Below are positions 10,910-24,184 of a DNA stretch of 64,000 nucleotides, piece after piece; position 1 is the first letter of the stretch; every line of letters starts with the position of its first letter. Under the pieces are notes generated by a model. It was not told the origin of the DNA and ran no database searches. It saw only the letters and a program-made list of their open reading frames with translations. The stretch spans positions 6,407,738 through 6,471,737 of the forward strand of contig NZ_LR593886.1 in the NCBI RefSeq assembly GCF_901538265.1, given 5' to 3'. Position numbers and translations under genes: made by a program. The DNA comes from Gemmata massiliana (lineage in GTDB: Bacteria > Planctomycetota > Planctomycetia > Gemmatales > Gemmataceae).

Positions 10910-11923
10910 TCAGAACCGGAACCCGGTCGTGAACTGGAGGTTCAGGTTGTGCAGGTTCCCCTGCACCGGCGGCACCAGGTTCGTCCAGTCGTAGCCGTAC
11001 TCGAACCGGATGCCGTTCGTCCAGATCCACGAGCCCATCGGGATGTCGAAGGTCGTGTGCGCCCCGATGAAGACGCCCTGGTACACGTTCTGGCGGCGCG
11101 AGTACCCGTTCGTCTCGTCGAGCGGGACCATGTCCACGTGGGCGGTACCGTACCGCCCGCCGACCCACGCGCCGACGCGCCAGTTCGTGCCGTTCTGCCC
11201 GGCCGTGCTCCCGTCGCCCCGGAGCCACACGTCGCGGCCGAAGGCGTAGTTGAAACTCGATCGGCTGATCCCGCGCACCGCGGTCAGCACGAACCGGTCC
11301 GGTTGCACCTGGAACCCTTGGTTCTGCTGGTTCTGTACGGGCTGGCTCCGCAGGAACAGGAACGTCGGCTCGTTCTCGCCCTGCCCGCGGTTGTACGTGT
11401 AGCTCCCGCCGAGGTCGACGGTCCACGCGGCCGTGTGCGTCGGGTCGAAGAACAGCGTGCGGACGCCGCCCCCGACGGTCCACCCGGTGGTCTTCAACAG
11501 GTCCGGCAGCCCGTTACCGATCGTGAAGTTCAGACCGGCGTAGCTGTACCCTTCGTACCCGATGCGCCCGGCCCGTTCGAGCGGCGAGCAGCACCCGGGG
11601 CCGTCCGTGTAATAAGGGCTCGGGTAGCTCCCCGGCGGCAGCGAGCCCGGGGCCGGTTGCCCGGTGAGCGTGCCCATCGGGTCGCCCCCGCCGGAACCGG
11701 GCATCCCGCCCATTTGTTCCAGGTTCGTGACCGCGGCCGGCGGGCGCCCCGGGGGCATCGATGAGCCCGTAAACGCCGGTTCTTCGGCCCCGGCCGGCCG
11801 CACCGACGGCACCAGACCGGGGTGGTCAGACCAGGCTCCGCCGCGAGATTGAGGTTGGGCCAAAGCCGGCCCGACGCTCAACGCCACCACGAACCCGGGA
11901 AGAAGGAATCGCGTGATCCTCAT
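10910..11923 (-). CDS. BBP7-type outer-membrane beta-barrel protein
   Basis: A 337-residue protein starting at ATG 11923 with GAGGGG upstream, and a signal peptide (MRITRFLLPGFVVALSVGPALA). A Pro/Gly-rich segment (about 25-115) precedes alternating polar/hydrophobic strands such as GWTVGGGVRTLFF, AAWTVDLGGSYTYN and NWRVGAWVGGRYG, and the protein ends in GFRF with a terminal Phe, as barrel proteins do. This architecture is typical of the BBP7 family of planctomycete outer-membrane proteins. Probably in the outer membrane; cargo or role unknown. Confidence 0.75.
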   Translation of the reverse strand: MRITRFLLPGFVVALSVGPALAQPQSRGGAWSDHPGLVPSVRPAGAEEPAFTGSSMPPGRPPAAVTNLEQMGGMPGSGGGDPMGTLTGQPAPGSLPPGSYPSPYYTDGPGCCSPLERAGRIGYEGYSYAGLNFTIGNGLPDLLKTTGWTVGGGVRTLFFDPTHTAAWTVDLGGSYTYNRGQGENEPTFLFLRSQPVQNQQNQGFQVQPDRFVLTAVRGISRSSFNYAFGRDVWLRGDGSTAGQNGTNWRVGAWVGGRYGTAHVDMVPLDETNGYSRRQNVYQGVFIGAHTTFDIPMGSWIWTNGIRFEYGYDWTNLVPPVQGNLHNLNLQFTTGFRF

Positions 11924-12383
11924 GCGCCCCTCGCCCGGCCACCGCGAACACCGCCACGCGACAGCCGTAAACAGTTCGATCCCAATCCACGTCGCTAACT
12001 TGATCGGCGCGGGGCACGGAAAACTTTAACGACCTGCGCGATTGCTCCGATTGGAACGAATACACGACTATTGCCGCCACATGTCTGCGAACCACGGATG
12101 CCCCATCGGGGTCGTTGAATTCTGGTGGTTGCATCGTGCCACCCGCGCGTTAACACTCGCAGTGGTAGCTGAGTGGGCCGTTGTTGCGAGCGGTCGGCTT
12201 CGAGTCTCACCGGCCGGCTCCCACCGACCGTTCGCCAAGACGCTTCCGGTCGCGAGCGTGAAGTTTTCCGTGCCCTCCCGCGTTCCCCAACTAAATGGTT
12301 CCGGGCGCCCGGTAACGGGGTTTGGTACAACGCGGTCTACGCGATATAAGTGAGTGGGAGAAATTGCGAACCCTGGAAAGCTA
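11924..12383. other. Intergenic region without recognised gene
   Basis: About 460 bp between divergent genes. The only distinct element is the perfect 12-bp palindrome CCGGGCGCCCGG at 12301-12312, some 70 bp before the next gene. It must hold both promoters, but none is clear by eye. Confidence 0.4.
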
Positions 12384-13877
12384 ATGGACCCGATCGAACT
12401 GCGCGACCTCGACGCGGCCCGCCGGTACATCCTCGACGGGCTGCTGCTCCAGCGCGCCCTCAAACCCACCGCGAAAACCGTCCGCCCGGCGCTCGAATGG
12501 GCAATGGAAATCGCGTCCAGCGGGCACCCGCTCCCGCCCATCGGGTTCGTCGCGGACGTGGGCAATGTTGCCCTCGGGGTGGACGCCGAACAGCGCGTGC
12601 GGGACGCGCACCCGGTTCCGGGCTGGCCCCCCGCGCTCGGCCGCAGTTACGAGGACCACGTTCTCGGTAAACTCTACGCCGACTGGACCTTCGAGCGCGC
12701 CGGGGACGCCCTGCGCAAGTACAAGGAAAAGGACCGCGTGCGCGGGCTGGCGTACATCGTGAACCAGTTCTGCGAGCACGCGGGGATTGCCGGCGTCCTG
12801 CTGCCGCCCGCGGTGATCCGGGCGCTCCAGTCGACCAACCCCGACGAAGTGGTTCAAACCGCCTACGACGGGCTGGTACGCGACGGCCCCTCCCCCCTGC
12901 TCGTGCAGATGTACGAGGCGCTCGTGTCCGCGGGGCGCCGGCTCGCGGAGGTGCTCGCGCCCGAGGACGTGATCGCGCTCGAACAGGGCACCGCGCTCGC
13001 CGACATGGGCCAGTACGTCGCGCACCGCCAGATCCTACAAACCACGGCGCGGATCGAAGCGCGGCTCCCGGCGCGCCCGGTCAAACCACTCGTCGGGCGC
13101 AAGGAAGTCCCCACGCGCGTGCTCGACGAGGACCAGTACCCGGTCGGCGGGTACACCTCGATCTCCACGAAAGGCTCGATCGAGAGCCTGTTGCACTCGC
13201 AACTCGCGTACATGGAGGACGAGAGCCCGGACCTCTTCGACATGAAGTTCGTGCGCGACGAGCTGTTCTACTACTCGCGCGACGAGAACCAGTTCCTGCG
13301 GCGCCGGCGGGCGTTCGTGTTCGTCGTCTTCCCGGACCTGATCGCGGCCCGGTTCAAGGACAGCGAACTGCCCTACCAGCGCATCGTGATGCTCCAGTCC
13401 ACGATTCTGGCGCTCGTGCGCAAGCTGACCGACTGGCTCAGCACGGACGCGATCCGGTTTGAAGTGCTGTTCGTGCAGGATGGGGGGAAGGCACCGCTCG
13501 CGGAAGAGGCCGCACTGCTGCGGCTACTGCTCCGCGAGCCGATCGAGCGCGGGGACGGCCTCGTCGCAACCGGCGACCGAGCCGCGTCCGGCAAGAACAC
13601 CCCGGAACAGGAGGCCGCGGAGCGAGCCACCGAGAGCCGGGAAGCCGTGGTGACCTATCTGAACCGGCTGTCGCGGAACTCCCAGGTTCATTGCCTCGCC
13701 ACCGCGACCGAGCCGTTCGACATGGAAATGGAGAACGTGGTGGTCACGGAACTGGTCGTGGCCGGCCCGCGCCCGGAGATCGGGGCCGGCGACGGGGCGG
13801 TCGCGGCCCTCGACGGCGAGGAACCGTTCGACGTGTGGCAGGAATCCGTGATGCGCGTGCTGCAATTGTGGGTGTGA
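12384..13877 (+). CDS. Uncharacterised protein, possibly with a vWA-like C-terminal domain
   Basis: Start at ATG 12384 with GGAAAG just upstream; 497 residues, no signal peptide or membrane segment, so cytoplasmic. The N-terminal half is helical. The second half has SIESLLHSQLAYMEDESPDL, FDMKFVRDELFYYSRDENQF and RRRRAFVFVVFPDLIAARF, which resemble the start of vWA-like domains found with MoxR-type ATPases, but there is no clear MIDAS DxSxS motif. I do not recognise a named family with confidence. It precedes an ABC permease and an ABC exporter on the same strand, separated by more than 100 bp. Confidence 0.6.
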   Translation: MDPIELRDLDAARRYILDGLLLQRALKPTAKTVRPALEWAMEIASSGHPLPPIGFVADVGNVALGVDAEQRVRDAHPVPGWPPALGRSYEDHVLGKLYADWTFERAGDALRKYKEKDRVRGLAYIVNQFCEHAGIAGVLLPPAVIRALQSTNPDEVVQTAYDGLVRDGPSPLLVQMYEALVSAGRRLAEVLAPEDVIALEQGTALADMGQYVAHRQILQTTARIEARLPARPVKPLVGRKEVPTRVLDEDQYPVGGYTSISTKGSIESLLHSQLAYMEDESPDLFDMKFVRDELFYYSRDENQFLRRRRAFVFVVFPDLIAARFKDSELPYQRIVMLQSTILALVRKLTDWLSTDAIRFEVLFVQDGGKAPLAEEAALLRLLLREPIERGDGLVATGDRAASGKNTPEQEAAERATESREAVVTYLNRLSRNSQVHCLATATEPFDMEMENVVVTELVVAGPRPEIGAGDGAVAALDGEEPFDVWQESVMRVLQLWV

Positions 13878-14003: not shown

Positions 14004-15341
14004 ATGGCGGGTAACGTCTCGATTCGCACCGACCCCCGGACCCCGCGCATGTTTTCGACGCTGTTCAACGACCCGACCGTTCTGTTGGCCGGCGTGGTAC
14101 TCGCTACCATACAGTTCGTCGCGGCCCTGCCGTGGCTCTGGGCCATCGACCCGAAGGGCTTCAAGTCCGCTGCGGCCAGTCCCGTGTCGCTCGGGTACGC
14201 GGTCCTAGGGTTACTCGTAGTCGGCGGGGGCGCGGGCGCGTTCCTCGTCTACAAGGGCGACCCCGCCAACCTCACGGTCAACGGGCGTTACATCTACGGC
14301 GGGCTGCTCCACTTGCAGCTCATCGTGGACCTGTTCCTGCTCCTGCCGCAAATCGTGATGGTCCTTTGGCCAAAGGGCGGGGTGGTCGCGTTCGCCGCGT
14401 ACCGCGAGAGCTGCCGGCAGCCGATGTTCTGGCTCATCACCCTCGGGGCCACGGTCGCCATCTGGATCTCGGTCGCGATCCCGTACTTCACGTTCGGCGA
14501 CGACTACAAGTTCATGAAGCAGATCGGGTTCGACCTCGTGATGCTGGCAGCGACCCTGTTCGGGGTGCTGGCCGCGACCATGTCGATCAGCGAGGAAATC
14601 GAGGGGCGCACGGCGGTCACGCTGATGAGCAAGCCGGTGAACCGGCGCCAGTTTCTCGTCGGCAAGTTTCTCGGCATCGTGATGGCCTGCCTCATCATGT
14701 CGATGCTCCTGAACTGGTCGCTGACCTACGCCCTCCGGGCGAGCCGTGAGTTCGACACGATCAACAACGCCGCGGACCCCACCGACCCGCTCGCCGCGCC
14801 CGCGGACAAGATCGTGGACCCGATGACCTACCAGGCGCAGAAGACCGTGGTCCCGCCGTTCAAGCGGATCGTGCCGAGCGTGCCGGGCAAGGCCATCGCC
14901 ACCGGCGCCGGGCTGTGGTTCTCCGACGCCGTCGCGCACACGTTCGGCGTCATGCTCGGGTTCGGCCAGGTCATGATCCTGGTCGCGATCGCGTCGGCCC
15001 TGGCCACGCGGTTGACGTTCATCGTGAACCTCGTCTTGTGCCTCCTGGTGTTCTTCCTGGGGCACCTCGCGCCCGTCATCGTGCAGGTGACGCAGCAGGT
15101 CCAGTCGCAGGGCGGCGCCGGGGTGGGGGTGGGACTCGTCGGGTTCCTCGGGCGCCTGTTCGACGCGCTCCTCCCGTCGCTCGAGTCCTTCAACATGAGC
15201 CGCGCCATCATCCGCGAGACCGAGCTCGACCTGTGGCAGTTCGGCGTGTACGTGCTGACCGTGACCGGGTACTCGCTGATCTACACCGTCATCGCGCTCA
15301 TCGTCGGGTTGCTCCTGTTTGAGGACCGCGACCTCGCGTAA
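14004..15341 (+). CDS. ABC-2 type transporter permease
   Basis: A 445-residue integral membrane protein with about nine or ten hydrophobic segments. The key feature is ISEEIEGRTAVTLMSKPVNRRQFLVGKF, the cytoplasmic coupling loop of ABC-2 permeases (E-E---GT-----SKPV-R), seen also in copper (NosY-like) and sodium exporters. A large non-membrane loop lies at about 245-310. ATG 14049 is an alternative start giving MFSTLFNDPTV. The ATPase partner is not adjacent. Substrate unknown. Confidence 0.75.
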   Translation: MAGNVSIRTDPRTPRMFSTLFNDPTVLLAGVVLATIQFVAALPWLWAIDPKGFKSAAASPVSLGYAVLGLLVVGGGAGAFLVYKGDPANLTVNGRYIYGGLLHLQLIVDLFLLLPQIVMVLWPKGGVVAFAAYRESCRQPMFWLITLGATVAIWISVAIPYFTFGDDYKFMKQIGFDLVMLAATLFGVLAATMSISEEIEGRTAVTLMSKPVNRRQFLVGKFLGIVMACLIMSMLLNWSLTYALRASREFDTINNAADPTDPLAAPADKIVDPMTYQAQKTVVPPFKRIVPSVPGKAIATGAGLWFSDAVAHTFGVMLGFGQVMILVAIASALATRLTFIVNLVLCLLVFFLGHLAPVIVQVTQQVQSQGGAGVGVGLVGFLGRLFDALLPSLESFNMSRAIIRETELDLWQFGVYVLTVTGYSLIYTVIALIVGLLLFEDRDLA

Positions 15342-15504: not shown

Positions 15505-17730
15505 GTGGGCAGCACTGCACTCGCGCAAATCCACAACAGTTTCGTGAAATCGCCCAGCGCCCGCTGGGGGTCACTCGTCTGTTCCGCAGGGGCCGCCGTC
15601 ACATACGTGCTCCTGCTCCTGCTCCTCTACCTCTTCGTCGACCTGCTCGTCTGGCGGGGCGAGATCCCGACCTACGCACAGCTCTCGGCCGCGCGCAAGC
15701 GCGAGTTCGCCGACGAATGGGCCGCGCGATCGGACGCGGACCGGGCCGAAGCGGTCGCGCGCCTGGGGTGGCCGGTCCACCGGGCCAAGCGGCTCGAAAC
15801 CCGCACGGACGACGACCTGAAGCCGCTCGCGAAGGCTCCGGGCGAAGAGCACCTGTTCGCCGACGAGTGGGACGCGCGGTGGACGGCGGGCGTGTACCTC
15901 GCGCTGCGGACCCGCGTGAACCAGTCCGCGGCCGATAATTATCTGCCCCCCCCGGGCTGGGAGCGGACGGACAAGGCCGAGGGCGCGGACCCAGAAGCGC
16001 GCCCGCAATTCGGGGTACTGAGCCTCGTGGTCCGCGAGCGCAACCGGTGGACCGGTCCGGTCCTCGGCTGGATCGCATCGTGGAACCCGTGGACCTGGGC
16101 GCCGGGATCGAGAGGTTCCGCCAACGTGCCCTACCTGACCGGGTTGTTCATCCTGGCGTTCGGCATTGCAACGGTGCGCGGGATACTCGTTAACGCGCTC
16201 ACCTATCTCTCGGCCGCGGTCACCCTCGACGCAGTCATCCGGCTCCGGCGGGCGGTCTATTTCCACTCGTATCGGCTCGGGCCGATTACGATGCAAACCC
16301 TTGGTACGGAAGAGGTTGCGAATCTCATGACGCGCCGCGTCGAGGAGATCGGCGCCGCGATCCAGGCCCAATTCGCGTCCACGGTCCGGTACCGGCTGCT
16401 CGTGGTTCTGCTGATCGGGCTGATTGTGCTGGTGAACTTCTGGTTGGCCATTAGTTTCCTCGCTCTGGCCGCACTCGTGTGGCTGGTCGGGGGGCAAGTG
16501 GCCGCTCACTTCCGGCGCGAGGGGCGGATCGGCGAGCGCCAGGCCGCGGTCACGCTCGCACTCCTGAAGGAAAGTATGTCGCTGTTCCGACTGGTGAAGT
16601 GCTTCCAGATGGAACGCTTCAACCAAAACCGGGTGGAGCGCCAACTCGCGGAATCGGCGCGGGCGAACTGGCGCCGGCTCCGCGGCGGAGAAATGGCCGG
16701 CCCGCTGCTCAACTCTGTTGTGGTACTCACAGGGGTCGCGCTCCTCTACCTCGCCGCACGCGGAGTTTTGGCCGGTGGGTTCTCGGTCGCAGGACTGGCG
16801 ATTCTGACGGTCGCGCTGGTTTCACTCGCGATCCCGATCGCGGCGCTGTTCGATCGTGCTCTGAAGGTCCGGCGCGGGCGCGAGGCGGCCGACGCGGTCT
16901 TCGAGTTCCTCGAACGGCGCGGCGAAGCGGCCGAGGCCGCCGATGCGGAGTTCCTCCCCGGCCTGACGACCCGCATGGAGTTCCGGCACGTCACGCTCAA
17001 CGACCCGGCGACCGGGCAGACGATCCTGAAGGACGTGACGTTCGCGGTCCCCGCCGGTGCGAGCGTCGCCATCGTGGGCCAGAACGCGGCCGAGAAGCAC
17101 GCGCTCGTGTCGATGATCCCGCGGTTCCTCGACCCGACCGCCGGCGAGATCCGGATCGAGGACAAGAACATCCGCTGGGTGACGCACGAATCGCTCCGCA
17201 CGCAGGTCGCGCTCGTGATGCAGGACGACCTCACGTTCACCGACACCGCGGCTAACAACATCGGCGTCGGCGACTCGTCGCACAACCTGCCGCAAATCAT
17301 TGAGGCCGCGAAACTCGCGCACGCCCACCAGTTCATCGAGAAGCTGCCGTTCGGCTACGAAACGCTCGTCGGCAACGGCGGGCACTCGCTCACCCCGGGC
17401 GAGCGATTCCGGATCGCACTGGCGCGTGCGCTGCTCCGCGATCCGTCGATCCTCATCATTGAGGAACCGACCGGCCCCGTGGACGAAGACACGCTCGCAC
17501 TGCTCGACGACACCTTGGTGCGCGTGTCCGCGGGGCGCACCGTGCTCTTCCTCGCACAGCGGCTCTCGACGCTCCGCAACGTGGACCGTGTGTTCCTCCT
17601 GAAGGACGGGTTGCTCGAGGCCGACGGCGCGCACGACGACCTCTGGAAGTCCAACGACAGTTACCGCCGGCTACAAATTCTCGCCGACGCGACCGCCACC
17701 GAACACCCCGTACTGAAGACCGATTCGTAA
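15505..17730 (+). CDS. ABC exporter (fused TMD-NBD) with degenerate ATPase motifs
   Basis: GTG start; 741 residues. A first membrane helix (about 30-50) is followed by a large soluble insert (about 50-200), then the remaining membrane domain (about 200-450), then a nucleotide-binding domain from about 490. Expected catalytic motifs are altered: Walker A reads GQNAAEKHA instead of GxxGxGKS/T, the signature LSGGQ is LTPGE, Walker B ends LIIEEP with Glu for the usual Asp, and the switch His in the H-loop is Gln (FLAQRLSTL). The Q-loop Gln (VMQDD) remains. The fold is an ABC exporter, but ATP hydrolysis may be lost or weakened. Cargo unknown. Confidence 0.8.
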   Translation: MGSTALAQIHNSFVKSPSARWGSLVCSAGAAVTYVLLLLLLYLFVDLLVWRGEIPTYAQLSAARKREFADEWAARSDADRAEAVARLGWPVHRAKRLETRTDDDLKPLAKAPGEEHLFADEWDARWTAGVYLALRTRVNQSAADNYLPPPGWERTDKAEGADPEARPQFGVLSLVVRERNRWTGPVLGWIASWNPWTWAPGSRGSANVPYLTGLFILAFGIATVRGILVNALTYLSAAVTLDAVIRLRRAVYFHSYRLGPITMQTLGTEEVANLMTRRVEEIGAAIQAQFASTVRYRLLVVLLIGLIVLVNFWLAISFLALAALVWLVGGQVAAHFRREGRIGERQAAVTLALLKESMSLFRLVKCFQMERFNQNRVERQLAESARANWRRLRGGEMAGPLLNSVVVLTGVALLYLAARGVLAGGFSVAGLAILTVALVSLAIPIAALFDRALKVRRGREAADAVFEFLERRGEAAEAADAEFLPGLTTRMEFRHVTLNDPATGQTILKDVTFAVPAGASVAIVGQNAAEKHALVSMIPRFLDPTAGEIRIEDKNIRWVTHESLRTQVALVMQDDLTFTDTAANNIGVGDSSHNLPQIIEAAKLAHAHQFIEKLPFGYETLVGNGGHSLTPGERFRIALARALLRDPSILIIEEPTGPVDEDTLALLDDTLVRVSAGRTVLFLAQRLSTLRNVDRVFLLKDGLLEADGAHDDLWKSNDSYRRLQILADATATEHPVLKTDS

Positions 17731-18631: not shown

Positions 18632-18776
18632 TTCCCCTGAGCCGACACCACAACGAGACGAAAAAAGCCTCGCGCGTCGGGAATTTTCGCCACTGGGTCG
18701 GTTCATACCACGTTGCCCAGAGAGCGCAAATCCGTTAATGTCATGTCGTCCCGGTCGGCCGCCGGAGAATTGCCCG

Positions 18777-19535
18777 ATGACTGACGCCGAACTCGACGCC
18801 GCCCTCGATCGCGCCGCCCACTGGCTCCGCCTCGCTGAGCGCGTGTGCGTACTGACCGGTGCCGGTGTGTCCGCGGAAAGTGGGGTGCCCACCTTTCGCG
18901 CAAGTGACGGCTTGTGGGAGGGGCACCGAATTGAAGACGTGGCGAGTCCCGACGGGTGGGACCGCAATCCCCTACTGGTGTGGCAGTTCTACAACGCCCG
19001 CCGCGCGAACGTCGCGACCGTAAAGCCGAACCCCGGCCACTTCGCCCTTGTTGCGATGGAAGACCGGTGGCGCGAACGATTCGCGCTGGTAACTCAGAAC
19101 GTGGACGGGCTGCACCTGGACGCGGGCAGCACCAACGTTCTGGAAATTCACGGGAGCCTTCGGCAAACTCGTTGCACCGTGTGCGAGTCGGTCGCGAACC
19201 GCGGACTGGAGCCGCTCGGTGACGCGCCCGAATGTCCGCAGTGCCGCGGCCGGCTCCGCCCGCACATCGTGTGGTTCGGTGAGGGACTGCCCCAGGACAT
19301 CTGGTCCGCGGCTCGGCTTGCGGCGTACCAGTGCCACGTGCTGCTCGTGGTCGGCACGTCGGCGGTCGTTCATCCGGCCGCGTCACTGATTCCGCTCGCC
19401 AAACGTGGCGAAGTGACTCCCGCAAAGGTGATCGAAGTGAACCTGACGCCCACCGAGGCCAGCGCCTACGCGGACGTCGGGCTGTACGGACCGTCTGGCG
19501 CGGTGCTCCCGAAGTTGCTACAGCGGTTGGGGTGA
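18777..19535 (+). CDS. Sirtuin NAD-dependent protein deacylase
   Basis: 252 residues from ATG 18777 with GGAG upstream; an in-frame ATG at 18738 is possible. It removes acyl groups from lysines using NAD+. Visible motifs are GAGVSAESGVPTFR (NAD binding), TQNVDGLH (catalytic His), a zinc ribbon made of CTVC and CPQC, PHIVWFGEGLP and VVGTSAVVHPA. Its closest functional type is CobB. It is followed only 7 bases later by folD, so the two are probably one operon. Confidence 0.93.
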   Translation: MTDAELDAALDRAAHWLRLAERVCVLTGAGVSAESGVPTFRASDGLWEGHRIEDVASPDGWDRNPLLVWQFYNARRANVATVKPNPGHFALVAMEDRWRERFALVTQNVDGLHLDAGSTNVLEIHGSLRQTRCTVCESVANRGLEPLGDAPECPQCRGRLRPHIVWFGEGLPQDIWSAARLAAYQCHVLLVVGTSAVVHPAASLIPLAKRGEVTPAKVIEVNLTPTEASAYADVGLYGPSGAVLPKLLQRLG

Positions 19536-19542
19536 GGACGAT

Positions 19543-20418
19543 ATGGCGGCTCAACGACTCGATGGAAAAGCCCTGGCCGCGACGATGCGGTCAGAAATCG
19601 CCGCGCGCGTGGCCGAACGCGCGCGCGCCGGTAAGCGCGCGCCCGGACTGGCGGCCGTGCTCGTCGGCGAAGACCCGGCCAGCCAGCAGTACGTGAAGAA
19701 CAAGCATAAGGCGTGTCAGGACGCCGGACTCGCCACCACGGTCCACCGGCTCTCCGCCTCCACGACGCAAGCGGAACTGCTCGAACTCGTCGGGCGCCTG
19801 AACGCGGACCCGGCCGTTCACGGCATCTTGGTGCAGCTCCCGCTCCCGAAGCAGATCGACGACGGCGCGATCATCCGCGCGGTGTCCCCGAACAAGGACG
19901 TGGACTGCTTCCACCCGGAAAACGTCGGCCTCCTGATGACCGGGTACCCGCGGTTCTACCCGTGTACGCCGCACGGCGTGCTGCAGTTGCTAACGCGCAA
20001 CGGCATCGCGCTTGCGGGGAAAGAAATCGTCGTGCTCGGGCGAAGTAACATCGTGGGCAAACCGGTCGCGGTCATGCTGATGCAAAAAGCGACCGCGACG
20101 AACCCCGCGGCCGGCGATGCAACCGTGACCGTGGCCCACACTCGGACGAAAAACCTCGCGGACGTGTGCCGGCGCGCGGACGTCCTCATCGCGGCAGCGG
20201 GCGTTCCGGGGGTCATCACGCCGGACATGGTGAAGCCGGGGGCCGCGGTCGTGGACGTGGGCACGAATAATGTGGACGGGCGCTGGCTCGGCGACGTTCA
20301 TAAGGACGTGGAATCTGTGGCCGGGTGGCTCTCCCCGGTGCCGGGCGGCGTCGGACCGATGACGATCACGATGCTGCTCTACAACACGCTGGACGCGGCC
20401 AAGCAGATCGACGGGTAA
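19543..20418 (+). CDS. folD: Bifunctional methylenetetrahydrofolate dehydrogenase/cyclohydrolase FolD
   Basis: 291 residues; interconverts 5,10-methylene-, methenyl- and 10-formyl-tetrahydrofolate with NADP. Diagnostic blocks are VGEDPASQQYVKNKHKAC with the catalytic Lys, VHGILVQLPLPKQID, PNKDVDCFHPENVG, VVLGRSNIVGKPVA, HTRTKNLADVCRRADVLIAA and PVPGGVGPMTITMLL. Full length for the family. Lies 7 bases after the sirtuin stop and about 50 bases before a membrane permease. Confidence 0.97.
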   Translation: MAAQRLDGKALAATMRSEIAARVAERARAGKRAPGLAAVLVGEDPASQQYVKNKHKACQDAGLATTVHRLSASTTQAELLELVGRLNADPAVHGILVQLPLPKQIDDGAIIRAVSPNKDVDCFHPENVGLLMTGYPRFYPCTPHGVLQLLTRNGIALAGKEIVVLGRSNIVGKPVAVMLMQKATATNPAAGDATVTVAHTRTKNLADVCRRADVLIAAAGVPGVITPDMVKPGAAVVDVGTNNVDGRWLGDVHKDVESVAGWLSPVPGGVGPMTITMLLYNTLDAAKQIDG

Positions 20419-20471: not shown

Positions 20472-21764
20472 ATGAATCTGAACCTCACGCTCGCGACGCG
20501 CATCGGGCTGAATCTGTGCGCCATCTTCGGCATCACCGCCGCACTGTACCTGGGCAGCAGCATCTTCATCCCGATCGTGTTCTCGGTGCTGCTCGCGTCG
20601 GTCCTGTTCCCGCTCGCGAAATTCATCCACGAGCAGTTGCGCGTGCCGTGGTTCTTCTCGTGTCTCACTGCCCTGCTGGGATTGGTCGCGCTACACCTGG
20701 TGGTGATCGGCGCGTTCACATGGGCGATCCCGAAGACCATCGTCGGGCTGCCGCAAACCGAGCAGGCGTGGATCGCCCAGTACAACACGATCCAGTCGAA
20801 CCTGAGCCAGCTCTTTCCCGTTAAAGACGACGACGAGTTCTTCGGCCGGTACGACCCGAACCGGTACCCGGACCGCCAGCCCCCGAAAGCCATCTCGCTG
20901 GTCCGCAAGCAATTGACCGAAGAGCAACTATCGAGCGGGCTGGTCAAGCTGTCCGTGCTCGGCCTGGACCACTTGTGGCAGGCGATCCTGGTTCTGTTCA
21001 TCACACTGTTCCTACTCCTTGAAGGGCAGATGCTGGCCGACAAGGTGAAGGCCATCTTCGGTCCGTCGATCGAGATCCGCGGGCGCGTGACGTTCGCGCT
21101 GGCGGAAATGACGGAAGCGATCCGCACGTACCTCGTGTGGCGCACGATCGTAAACCTGGGCCTCGCGCTGGTGCTCGGGAGCGCGTACTGGTACCTGGGG
21201 TTGAAACACTGGTACCTGTGGGCGCTCCTGGTCGCGGTGCTCAGTTACGTGCCGTACATCGGGACGATCGCGGCCGGCATCCCGCCACTCGTGGACGCGC
21301 TGCTGTTCGTGGACCCGTCCACCGCGCCGCTCGGCAGCGCGCTGCTCACCGCGTTCTTCATCTCGATCTTCTACACGTGCGTGGTCACGTTCGAGGGCTA
21401 CATCATCGTGCCGTGGGTGATGGGCCGGAGCATGGACCTGAACGCCACCACGGTCCTGCTCGCGTGCTTGTACTGGCACCAGGTCTGGGGCATCGCGGGG
21501 CTGTTCCTGGCGATGCCGCTCATGGCGGCGCTCAAGGCGATCTGCATGCAGGTCGAGGGGTGGCAGGGGTGGGGCCACCTGATGGGGTCCGGCCCCGCGG
21601 TGGAACTGAAGCTCGACGACGCCGCGACGGAAAAGGCGCGCCTCAAGGCCATCGAGAACGCGATCGGGGATAACGGCGAGCAAACGGTCGTGATAGACCC
21701 GAACGAAGATAGGAAAGGTGCAGCCCAGTCGGGCGACACCAAAAGCGACGGATACCCCTCCTGA
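20472..21764 (+). CDS. AI-2E family transporter
   Basis: A 430-residue membrane protein of the AI-2E (TqsA/PerM) family: two helices at the start (AIFGITAALYLGSSIFIPIVFSVLLASVL), a soluble loop at about 100-165, then five or six helices with LVAVLSYVPYIGTIAAGIPP and VMGRSMDLNATTVLLACLYW. Members export autoinducer-2 or act as Na+/H+ antiporters, so the family name should not be taken as a function. The C-terminal 60 residues are hydrophilic. Confidence 0.88.
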   Translation: MNLNLTLATRIGLNLCAIFGITAALYLGSSIFIPIVFSVLLASVLFPLAKFIHEQLRVPWFFSCLTALLGLVALHLVVIGAFTWAIPKTIVGLPQTEQAWIAQYNTIQSNLSQLFPVKDDDEFFGRYDPNRYPDRQPPKAISLVRKQLTEEQLSSGLVKLSVLGLDHLWQAILVLFITLFLLLEGQMLADKVKAIFGPSIEIRGRVTFALAEMTEAIRTYLVWRTIVNLGLALVLGSAYWYLGLKHWYLWALLVAVLSYVPYIGTIAAGIPPLVDALLFVDPSTAPLGSALLTAFFISIFYTCVVTFEGYIIVPWVMGRSMDLNATTVLLACLYWHQVWGIAGLFLAMPLMAALKAICMQVEGWQGWGHLMGSGPAVELKLDDAATEKARLKAIENAIGDNGEQTVVIDPNEDRKGAAQSGDTKSDGYPS

Positions 21765-22493: not shown

Positions 22494-24023
22494 TTACGAC
22501 GACGTTCGGACGAACAGCGCGAGCGAGCTGATGACCGTCTGGAACACGCCCCACGCGAGCGGTATCCCGACCCACCCCCACCGGAACCCGAGCGTGAGCC
22601 AGTTGAACGCGACCGGCGTGGCCGCTTCCAACGGCGCGGCCACGGTTTCTGCTGTGGTGCCCACCGCGGCCAGTTGAACGGGCGCCACGCGGCGGACGAA
22701 CAGGTTGCACGCGAACCCGACGATGAGCAGCCCGGCCATCAGGTACATCGTCAGCGTGTACGCATCCGCCTTCGGCACACCGCTGTTGATCTGGTGCTCG
22801 CGAATGTAGTTCACCAGTACCGGACCGGCCACGCCCGCCAGTGACCACGCGGTCAGCAGCCGGCCGTGGATCGCGCCCACCTGCGCCGTACCGAACTGGT
22901 CACGGAGGTACGCAGGAATCGTCGCGAACCCGCCGCCGTACATGCTGATGATGATGCCGTAACACAGCACGAACAGCGCCACGTTCCCCAAATGCCCAGT
23001 CGTGGGCGTGAGCGCATACAGCACCGCGCCGAGCGCGAAGAAGATCGCATACGTGGGCTTGCGGCCGATCGCGTCGGACGTGGACGACCACACAAACCGC
23101 CCGGCCATGTTGAAGAGGCTCAGCAGCCCCACGAACCCGGTCGCCGCCTTCTCCCACACCTCGGGGGAGAACAGTTGCGGGAACATCTCCTGGATCATCG
23201 GCGACGCCTGTTCCAGCACGCCGATTCCGGCTGTGACGTTCAGCAGCAGCACGGCCCACAGGAGCCAGAACGCCCGCGTGCGGATCGCGTCGTTCGGGGT
23301 GGCGCTCGCAACGTTCGATATGGCCTTCTTCACCGCACCGGGCGGCTTCCAGCCGGGGGCCGGGATGCGCACCGTCAGCACGCCGAACATCATGAAGGCG
23401 AAGTACACGACGCCCATCACCAGGAACGTTTCCTGTACGCCCGCGGATTCCGGCGTGCGGAAGTGGGCCATCAGCACGCGCGAGAGCGGCGCGCCGATCA
23501 TGGACCCGCCGCCGAACCCCATGATTGCCAACCCGGTTGCCATCCCGGGCCGGTCCGGGAACCACTTGATGAGCGTGGATACCGGAGAGATGTACCCCAA
23601 CCCCAAACCGATGCCACCGAGCACACCGTAACCCAAATACAGCAGCCAGAGTTGGTGAACCCACACCCCGACCGCGGACACCAGGAACCCGCTCGCGAAA
23701 CAGACCGCCGACGCGAACATCGCCTTGCGCGGCCCGACCCGATCGAGCCACGAGCCGAACAGCGCCGCGGAGAGCCCGAGGAACACGATGGCGATGCTGA
23801 ACACCCACGCCACGTCCGGCTGGCTCCAGTCGCCTTGCGCGGGCGCCTTAATTCCGATGAGTTGCGTGAGCGGGAGCTTGAACACACTGAACGCATAGGC
23901 TTCGCCGATGGCCAGGTGGATCGCCAGCGCCGCGGGCGGAACGAGCCACCGGTTGAAGCCCGGCGGGGCGACGGTGCGCTGGCGGTCAAAGAAGCCTGGT
24001 GCGGAAGTGACCAAAGTGGACAT
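22494..24023 (-). CDS. MFS transporter, OFA (oxalate/formate antiporter-like) family
   Basis: 509 residues starting at MSTLVTSAPGFF (24023); a longer frame to 24074 has no support. Twelve or so membrane helices are evident, with the MFS loop motif GSWLDRVGPRKAMFA between helices 2 and 3, GEAYAFSVFKLPL in helix 1, and GRFVWSSTSDAIGRKPTYA before helix 8. This matches the OFA family, whose members exchange small carboxylates such as oxalate or formate. A long periplasmic loop around 270-300 is typical. Substrate unproven. Confidence 0.85.
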   Translation of the reverse strand: MSTLVTSAPGFFDRQRTVAPPGFNRWLVPPAALAIHLAIGEAYAFSVFKLPLTQLIGIKAPAQGDWSQPDVAWVFSIAIVFLGLSAALFGSWLDRVGPRKAMFASAVCFASGFLVSAVGVWVHQLWLLYLGYGVLGGIGLGLGYISPVSTLIKWFPDRPGMATGLAIMGFGGGSMIGAPLSRVLMAHFRTPESAGVQETFLVMGVVYFAFMMFGVLTVRIPAPGWKPPGAVKKAISNVASATPNDAIRTRAFWLLWAVLLLNVTAGIGVLEQASPMIQEMFPQLFSPEVWEKAATGFVGLLSLFNMAGRFVWSSTSDAIGRKPTYAIFFALGAVLYALTPTTGHLGNVALFVLCYGIIISMYGGGFATIPAYLRDQFGTAQVGAIHGRLLTAWSLAGVAGPVLVNYIREHQINSGVPKADAYTLTMYLMAGLLIVGFACNLFVRRVAPVQLAAVGTTAETVAAPLEAATPVAFNWLTLGFRWGWVGIPLAWGVFQTVISSLALFVRTSS

Positions 24024-24184
24024 GGAGTTGTCTCGTTCGCCCGGCGCTGGGCGTACCCACCAGCACCCTTCCAAACGCAGGCGCCAGCAGGCATTTGTTG
24101 CATTACATGTGATCCCTCACCAGAAGATAGCGAACCCCGTGCCCCTCTATTACAAGTACAGGCATTTCTGAATCGCCCGCGCGT

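Follow-up and report, generated by a model that had tools for sequence, protein, structure and literature searches.

An exporter with an altered ATP site

How can a gene for an ABC exporter be kept when the motifs of its ATP site have all changed? The question is raised in Gemmata massiliana by an open reading frame at 15505–17730 (+ strand) of the window, the 64,000-nucleotide stretch of DNA analysed here. The 10.1 Mb host genome is close to Gemmata; with Gemmata sp. IIL30 it shares 96% identity at the protein level. The encoded protein of 741 residues, which has a GTG start, fuses a transmembrane domain (TMD; PF00664, ABC_membrane, residues 202–436) to a nucleotide-binding domain (NBD; PF00005, ABC_tran, residues 508–656) and has the fold of a type IV exporter. 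A long segment between TM1 and TM2 (15667–16119, residues 55–205), which varies in length among relatives, is followed by the core TMD (16120–16914, residues 206–470) and by the degenerate NBD (16957–17685, residues 485–727), which is more constrained than the rest of the protein. The span 16981–17730, to which an earlier note on this DNA had drawn attention, comprises the NBD and C-terminal tail. The long TM1–TM2 segment is unremarkable, because in the alignment many canonical planctomycete exporters share it. The best NCBIfam model is MsbA_lipidA (TIGR02203), and the score of 268.4 bits lies far below the equivalog cut-off of 602 bits for the MsbA lipid A flippase.

The earlier note had read Walker A, signature, Walker B and the switch histidine as departing from consensus together, and this proves correct; the A-loop aromatic is lost as well. 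On the + strand, the canonical A-loop tyrosine is an aspartate (D500, 17002–17004), and the Walker A remnant GQNAAEKH (17077–17100) has glutamate for the third glycine and histidine for the serine or threonine. The signature remnant is altered to LTPGE (17389–17403), Walker B (LIIEEP, 17452–17469) has glutamate for the Mg-binding aspartate, and the switch (H-loop) histidine is replaced by glutamine (17557–17559). The D-loop reads GPVD. Three residues of the site are retained: the Walker A lysine (K531), the Q-loop glutamine (Q573, in VMQDD at 17215–17229) and the catalytic glutamate (E654). Because Walker A, the signature, the Walker B aspartate and the H-loop are not intact, we class the protein as a pseudo-ATPase relative of these exporters and not as a functional exporter. 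The note had also proposed looking for a competent paralogue. The closest one in the genome (C1:7244770–7246314), with 31% identity, is an exporter of the canonical kind, and Walker A is intact in all 18 other ABC NBD proteins checked there.

Fold and structural residues are retained

The exporter was modelled with AlphaFold2 from a 29-row alignment (pLDDT 82.5, pTM 0.67). The model keeps the NBD fold, with a helix at residues 528–536 that includes most of the old P-loop. Among the matches listed, the best by fold (Foldseek, VIA-align) are TmrAB, MsbA, TM287/288, CmABCB1 and P-glycoprotein, with VIA Z scores of about 30 and several hundred residues aligned at 3–8 Å rmsd. Together with the 741-residue frame and the two Pfam domains, this bears out the view that fold and frame are intact. 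Residues E356, R362, K365 and E370 of the intracellular loops, which lie in the core TMD, are conserved in the alignment as in canonical exporters, and coupling between NBD and TMD therefore looks preserved.

To set the family against its canonical counterparts, distinct NBDs pulled by one profile were divided into 130 without a P-loop (degenerate) and 51 with one (canonical paralogues). Orthologues with canonical motifs, which the note had named as a refutation, did not turn up: none of the 130 relatives has a P-loop, and the departures recur in every orthologue read. The third P-loop glycine is present in 0 of 130 degenerate and 51 of 51 canonical domains, the P-loop serine or threonine in 2 against 51, the Walker B aspartate in 1 against 49, and the first signature glycine in 0 against 47. 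Loss is less complete for the signature serine (16/130 versus 49/51), the H-loop histidine (37/130 versus 48/51), the Walker A lysine (49/130 versus 51/51), the Q-loop glutamine (50/130 versus 50/51) and the second signature glycine (91/130 versus 49/51), and some degenerate lineages retain the Walker A lysine, the Q-loop glutamine or the H-loop histidine. The catalytic glutamate is kept in 118 of 130 degenerate domains (48/51 canonical), and 105 of them read EEP in Walker B, a combination seen in no canonical domain (0/51). A column comparison puts the frequency of the A-loop tyrosine at 0.96 in canonical and 0.00 in degenerate sequences and gives the same general picture: positions that contact nucleotide are lost, and structural positions are kept as in canonical exporters (R540, G547, R565, N585, G617, Y618, R641, P647, E654, D660, G702 and L713). 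An alignment artefact was rejected as the cause of the motif loss, since the same alignment positions the canonical paralogues as it should.

Distribution, origin and constraint

Orthologues are found in 62 of 95 Gemmataceae genomes and 28 of 39 genera (E ≤ 1e-100), and every NBD aligned among them is degenerate. A family profile built from 29 members finds degenerate exporters well outside the Gemmataceae; in a second large family they occur in 34 of 35 genomes. In this search the full-length degenerate proteins (E ≤ 1e-163, with one at 1e-128) are separated by a gap from canonical exporters (E ≥ 1e-125), with the exception of one degenerate fragment in genome G044. A sample of the class gave matches at E ≤ 1e-128 in 164 of 248 genomes, borderline cases having been checked by motif; one extra match, at 1e-129, is canonical, and its genome also has a degenerate copy. 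Nearly all degenerate copies have a full-length open frame, those in closed genomes included. Some Gemmataceae genomes without a hit in the first search have more eroded copies, which adjoin the permease described below. In one of these copies (L242:6658–8478) Pfam recognises no family, and in another (L243:3663–5600) a threshold ABC_tran match is the sole hit; erosion therefore continues in some lineages.

After removal of the motif columns, a tree was built from 52 degenerate and 28 canonical sequences by a quick search, with no bootstrap and a root for drawing only. In it, a branch with SH-aLRT 100 has every degenerate protein to the same side. This is consistent with a single loss of the motifs in the ancestor of a large part of the class. 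Against the two nearest orthologues, the NBD has dN/dS values of 0.016 (dN 0.007, dS 0.46) and 0.021 (dN 0.024, dS 1.13), below those of the TMD and of the TM1–TM2 segment; the comparison is based on these two, as dS of more distant pairs is saturated or unstable. Judged by these codon comparisons, the NBD is under strong purifying selection. Recent decay of the motifs was rejected on the grounds that the loss is found in every relative read, that the degenerate proteins are monophyletic and that nearly all frames are intact across the class. The proposal that the protein has been retained in a non-hydrolytic form is thus well supported by the antiquity and class-wide extent of the loss and by the constraint on the NBD, as far as sequence comparison can speak to it. 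The exporter is very probably a conserved pseudo-ATPase of the type IV (MsbA/ABCB-like) half-exporter kind.

In the literature searched, which covered few subscription journals, we found no description of a monophyletic, class-wide exporter family without a P-loop, and nothing on point for planctomycete pseudo-ABC exporters or for a pseudo-ATPase combined with an ABC transporter. Pseudo-ATPases as such are an already known kind.

Linkage to an ABC-2 permease

A gene for an ABC-2 permease of 445 residues (14004–15341, + strand; PF12730/PF12679) ends 163 bp before the exporter. The permease lies upstream of the exporter on the same strand at 39 of 58 loci, with a median gap of 160 bp, and this linked set includes each of the 14 loci that were initially drawn from other families; the 19 loci at which the two do not adjoin are all from the Gemmataceae. 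When loci were picked by the permease alone, 16 of 40 had the degenerate exporter directly after it. The permease is present in 90 of 95 Gemmataceae genomes and 242 of 248 genomes of the class and thus occurs also without the exporter; about a third of the sampled class genomes have a permease with no exporter above threshold. The five Gemmataceae genomes without a permease are also without an exporter, and all five are poor assemblies. In one genome (G646) an exporter but no permease was detected; the position of this exporter close to the end of its contig makes an assembly gap the probable cause.

The AlphaFold2 model of the permease has a pLDDT of 87.5. Its closest solved relative is NosY of the NosDFY complex, a weak but top-ranked match on which fold and profile agree (Foldseek E 2.8e-3; profile E 0.0045). 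NosDFY differs in having the ATPase NosF, whereas no such gene, nor any other ABC ATPase, lies beside the permease or exporter at nearly all loci examined. At class loci, the ABC gene adjoining the permease, where there is one, is the degenerate exporter. An ABC ATPase adjoins the permease only near two distant homologues in other classes (L327 and L330); among 30 loci of such permease homologues, two of which belong to the same class or lack a clear orthologue, 28 are free of ABC genes to a distance of about 1.5 kb. A canonical exporter considered as the permease neighbour at one locus (L274, genome G547) was rejected, being an unrelated exporter 1.9 kb away; the degenerate copy of that genome is on a different contig.

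A proposed role and its alternatives

Because the same motif loss is seen in 130 of 130 relatives, often beside the same permease, the exporter has probably been kept for a task that does not use ATP. We propose that it is a functional partner of the permease, a claim that we hold to be evenly balanced; gene linkage is not interaction. The exporter would form the usual exporter dimer and would be unable to run an ATP cycle; as a non-hydrolytic subunit it would dock to or gate the permease, its NBDs acting as a platform for docking and coupling, and the ATPase that belongs to the permease, encoded in trans, would power the movement. Taken whole, the reading that the ABC-2 permease has in this pseudo-ATPase exporter a retained partner, non-hydrolytic but competent in coupling, stands, in our judgement, at about an even chance. 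More tentatively, and with the balance somewhat against it, the class-wide family might have given up ATP for good and serve as a non-hydrolytic partner of the permease that transmits movement; two types of ABC transporter would then share a single complex, in which the NBDs of the dead exporter are coupling parts. The family points to a possible link between these two types, and it provides a natural test of what exporter NBDs do besides burning ATP.

Comparison with known exporters sharpens what is unusual here. The domain order, the TMD and NBD folds and the intracellular coupling residues are those of homodimeric MsbA/ABCB-type exporters, from which the family differs in that its ATP-site motifs are all altered and an ABC-2 permease often adjoins. 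Where an ABC exporter has a degenerate ATP site, this is normally one of its two sites, and what such sites are for is under debate; in the present family the ATP-binding loop is lost in every member read. In heterodimers with one degenerate site (TM287/288, TmrAB, TAP, BmrCD and MsRv1273c/72c), one subunit likewise has an altered signature and H-loop. At such sites, however, it is the signature and the catalytic glutamate that change, Walker A being mostly retained (PMC7756269, PMC12038006), and one complete site remains, whereas in the present family Walker A is gone and the glutamate is kept. The family's pattern of loss is close to the reverse of the known one.

This difference bears on the suggestion in the earlier note that the protein is one half of a heterodimer, whose other half would then be a canonical exporter from another locus, such as the paralogue with 31% identity. 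Pairs in which one subunit is degenerate are common (PMC7756269, PMC12038006), and canonical exporters are present in nearly all genomes that have the degenerate one. Known degenerate halves, though, mostly retain Walker A and contribute to one complete composite site. A composite site combines Walker A of one subunit with the signature of the other; the exporter offers neither, so both composite sites would be incomplete, and no second exporter half is co-encoded at the loci read. The retention of the often-altered catalytic glutamate in 118 of 130 domains also speaks against this arrangement, which we regard as improbable. A slow but real ATPase, also raised by the note, would make use of the retained lysine and catalytic glutamate, and K531, Q573 and E654 are indeed present; with the third P-loop glycine and the A-loop tyrosine missing from the relatives compared, and the lysine and glutamine in 49 and 50 of 130 domains, it is very improbable, because the P-loop itself is gone. 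An exporter fold that presumably is no longer run by its own ATPase is found in the SbmA-like peptide transporters (SLiPTs), and for SbmA, which is proton-driven, an origin from the TMD of an ABC exporter has been proposed (PMC13316013). With the ATP site gone and the TMD kept, the planctomycete protein could similarly move a substrate by an ion gradient or passively. In SLiPTs, however, NBD and coupling helices are gone (PMC13316013), whereas here both are kept, the NBD being the most conserved part and the coupling-loop residues being retained. SbmA-like proteins use a conserved ladder of TMD glutamates; judged from the alignment alone, no conserved membrane-embedded acidic set is seen here, and D46 at the end of TM1 (0.71 acidic) is the sole position to reach that level. 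We consider ATP-independent transport unlikely.

If the strong constraint on the NBD reflected a new ligand, the remodelled domain might instead act as a sensor, a role that the note had named beside that of a scaffold, binding another molecule, or nucleotide in a non-P-loop way, and reporting to the TMD or the permease. Conserved residues specific to the degenerate family (E653, P655, D668, D669 and R673) adjoin the old ATP site and would suit such a function. The old P-loop segment, by contrast, is not conserved between families, reading GxDDxEKHAL in much of the Gemmataceae and SLDPLxxRA-like in the second large family, which means that the P-loop has not given way to any one new binding motif; a sensor is a fairly improbable alternative. 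That the gene is a decaying relic without function draws on the further eroded L242 and L243 copies. It is contradicted by the selection data, with NBD dN/dS of about 0.02, by frames intact nearly throughout and by conservation across the class, and is extremely improbable. The partnership with the permease is the reading that we carry forward.

Recurrent neighbours and surrounding genes

Other recurrent neighbours encode an acylphosphatase, NAD kinase (nadK), dxs, a polyprenyl synthetase, an HD protein and IMPase. In several Gemmataceae, the genes for polyprenyl synthetase, dxs and NAD kinase precede the permease and exporter (L245:9601–10641, L245:7510–9498 and L260:3996–5042). This isoprenoid-type gene cluster might hint at a lipid role, and the class is known for unusual membranes; a lipid-like substrate is only a guess. 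In the second large family, an HD-domain protein directly follows the degenerate exporter at about ten loci (for example, L116:10044–10667).

In the window itself, the permease is preceded by a gene (12354–13877, + strand) for an ivWA and ivWA-helical_N protein (PF19997, PF19996), the vWA part of so-called FtsH ternary systems, and by one on the − strand (10910–11923) for a protein of 337 residues that has a signal-like start and matches no Pfam family. Downstream of the exporter are genes for a Sir2 family protein (18738–19535), FolD (19543–20418), an AI-2E family transporter (20472–21764) and an MFS transporter (22494–24074).
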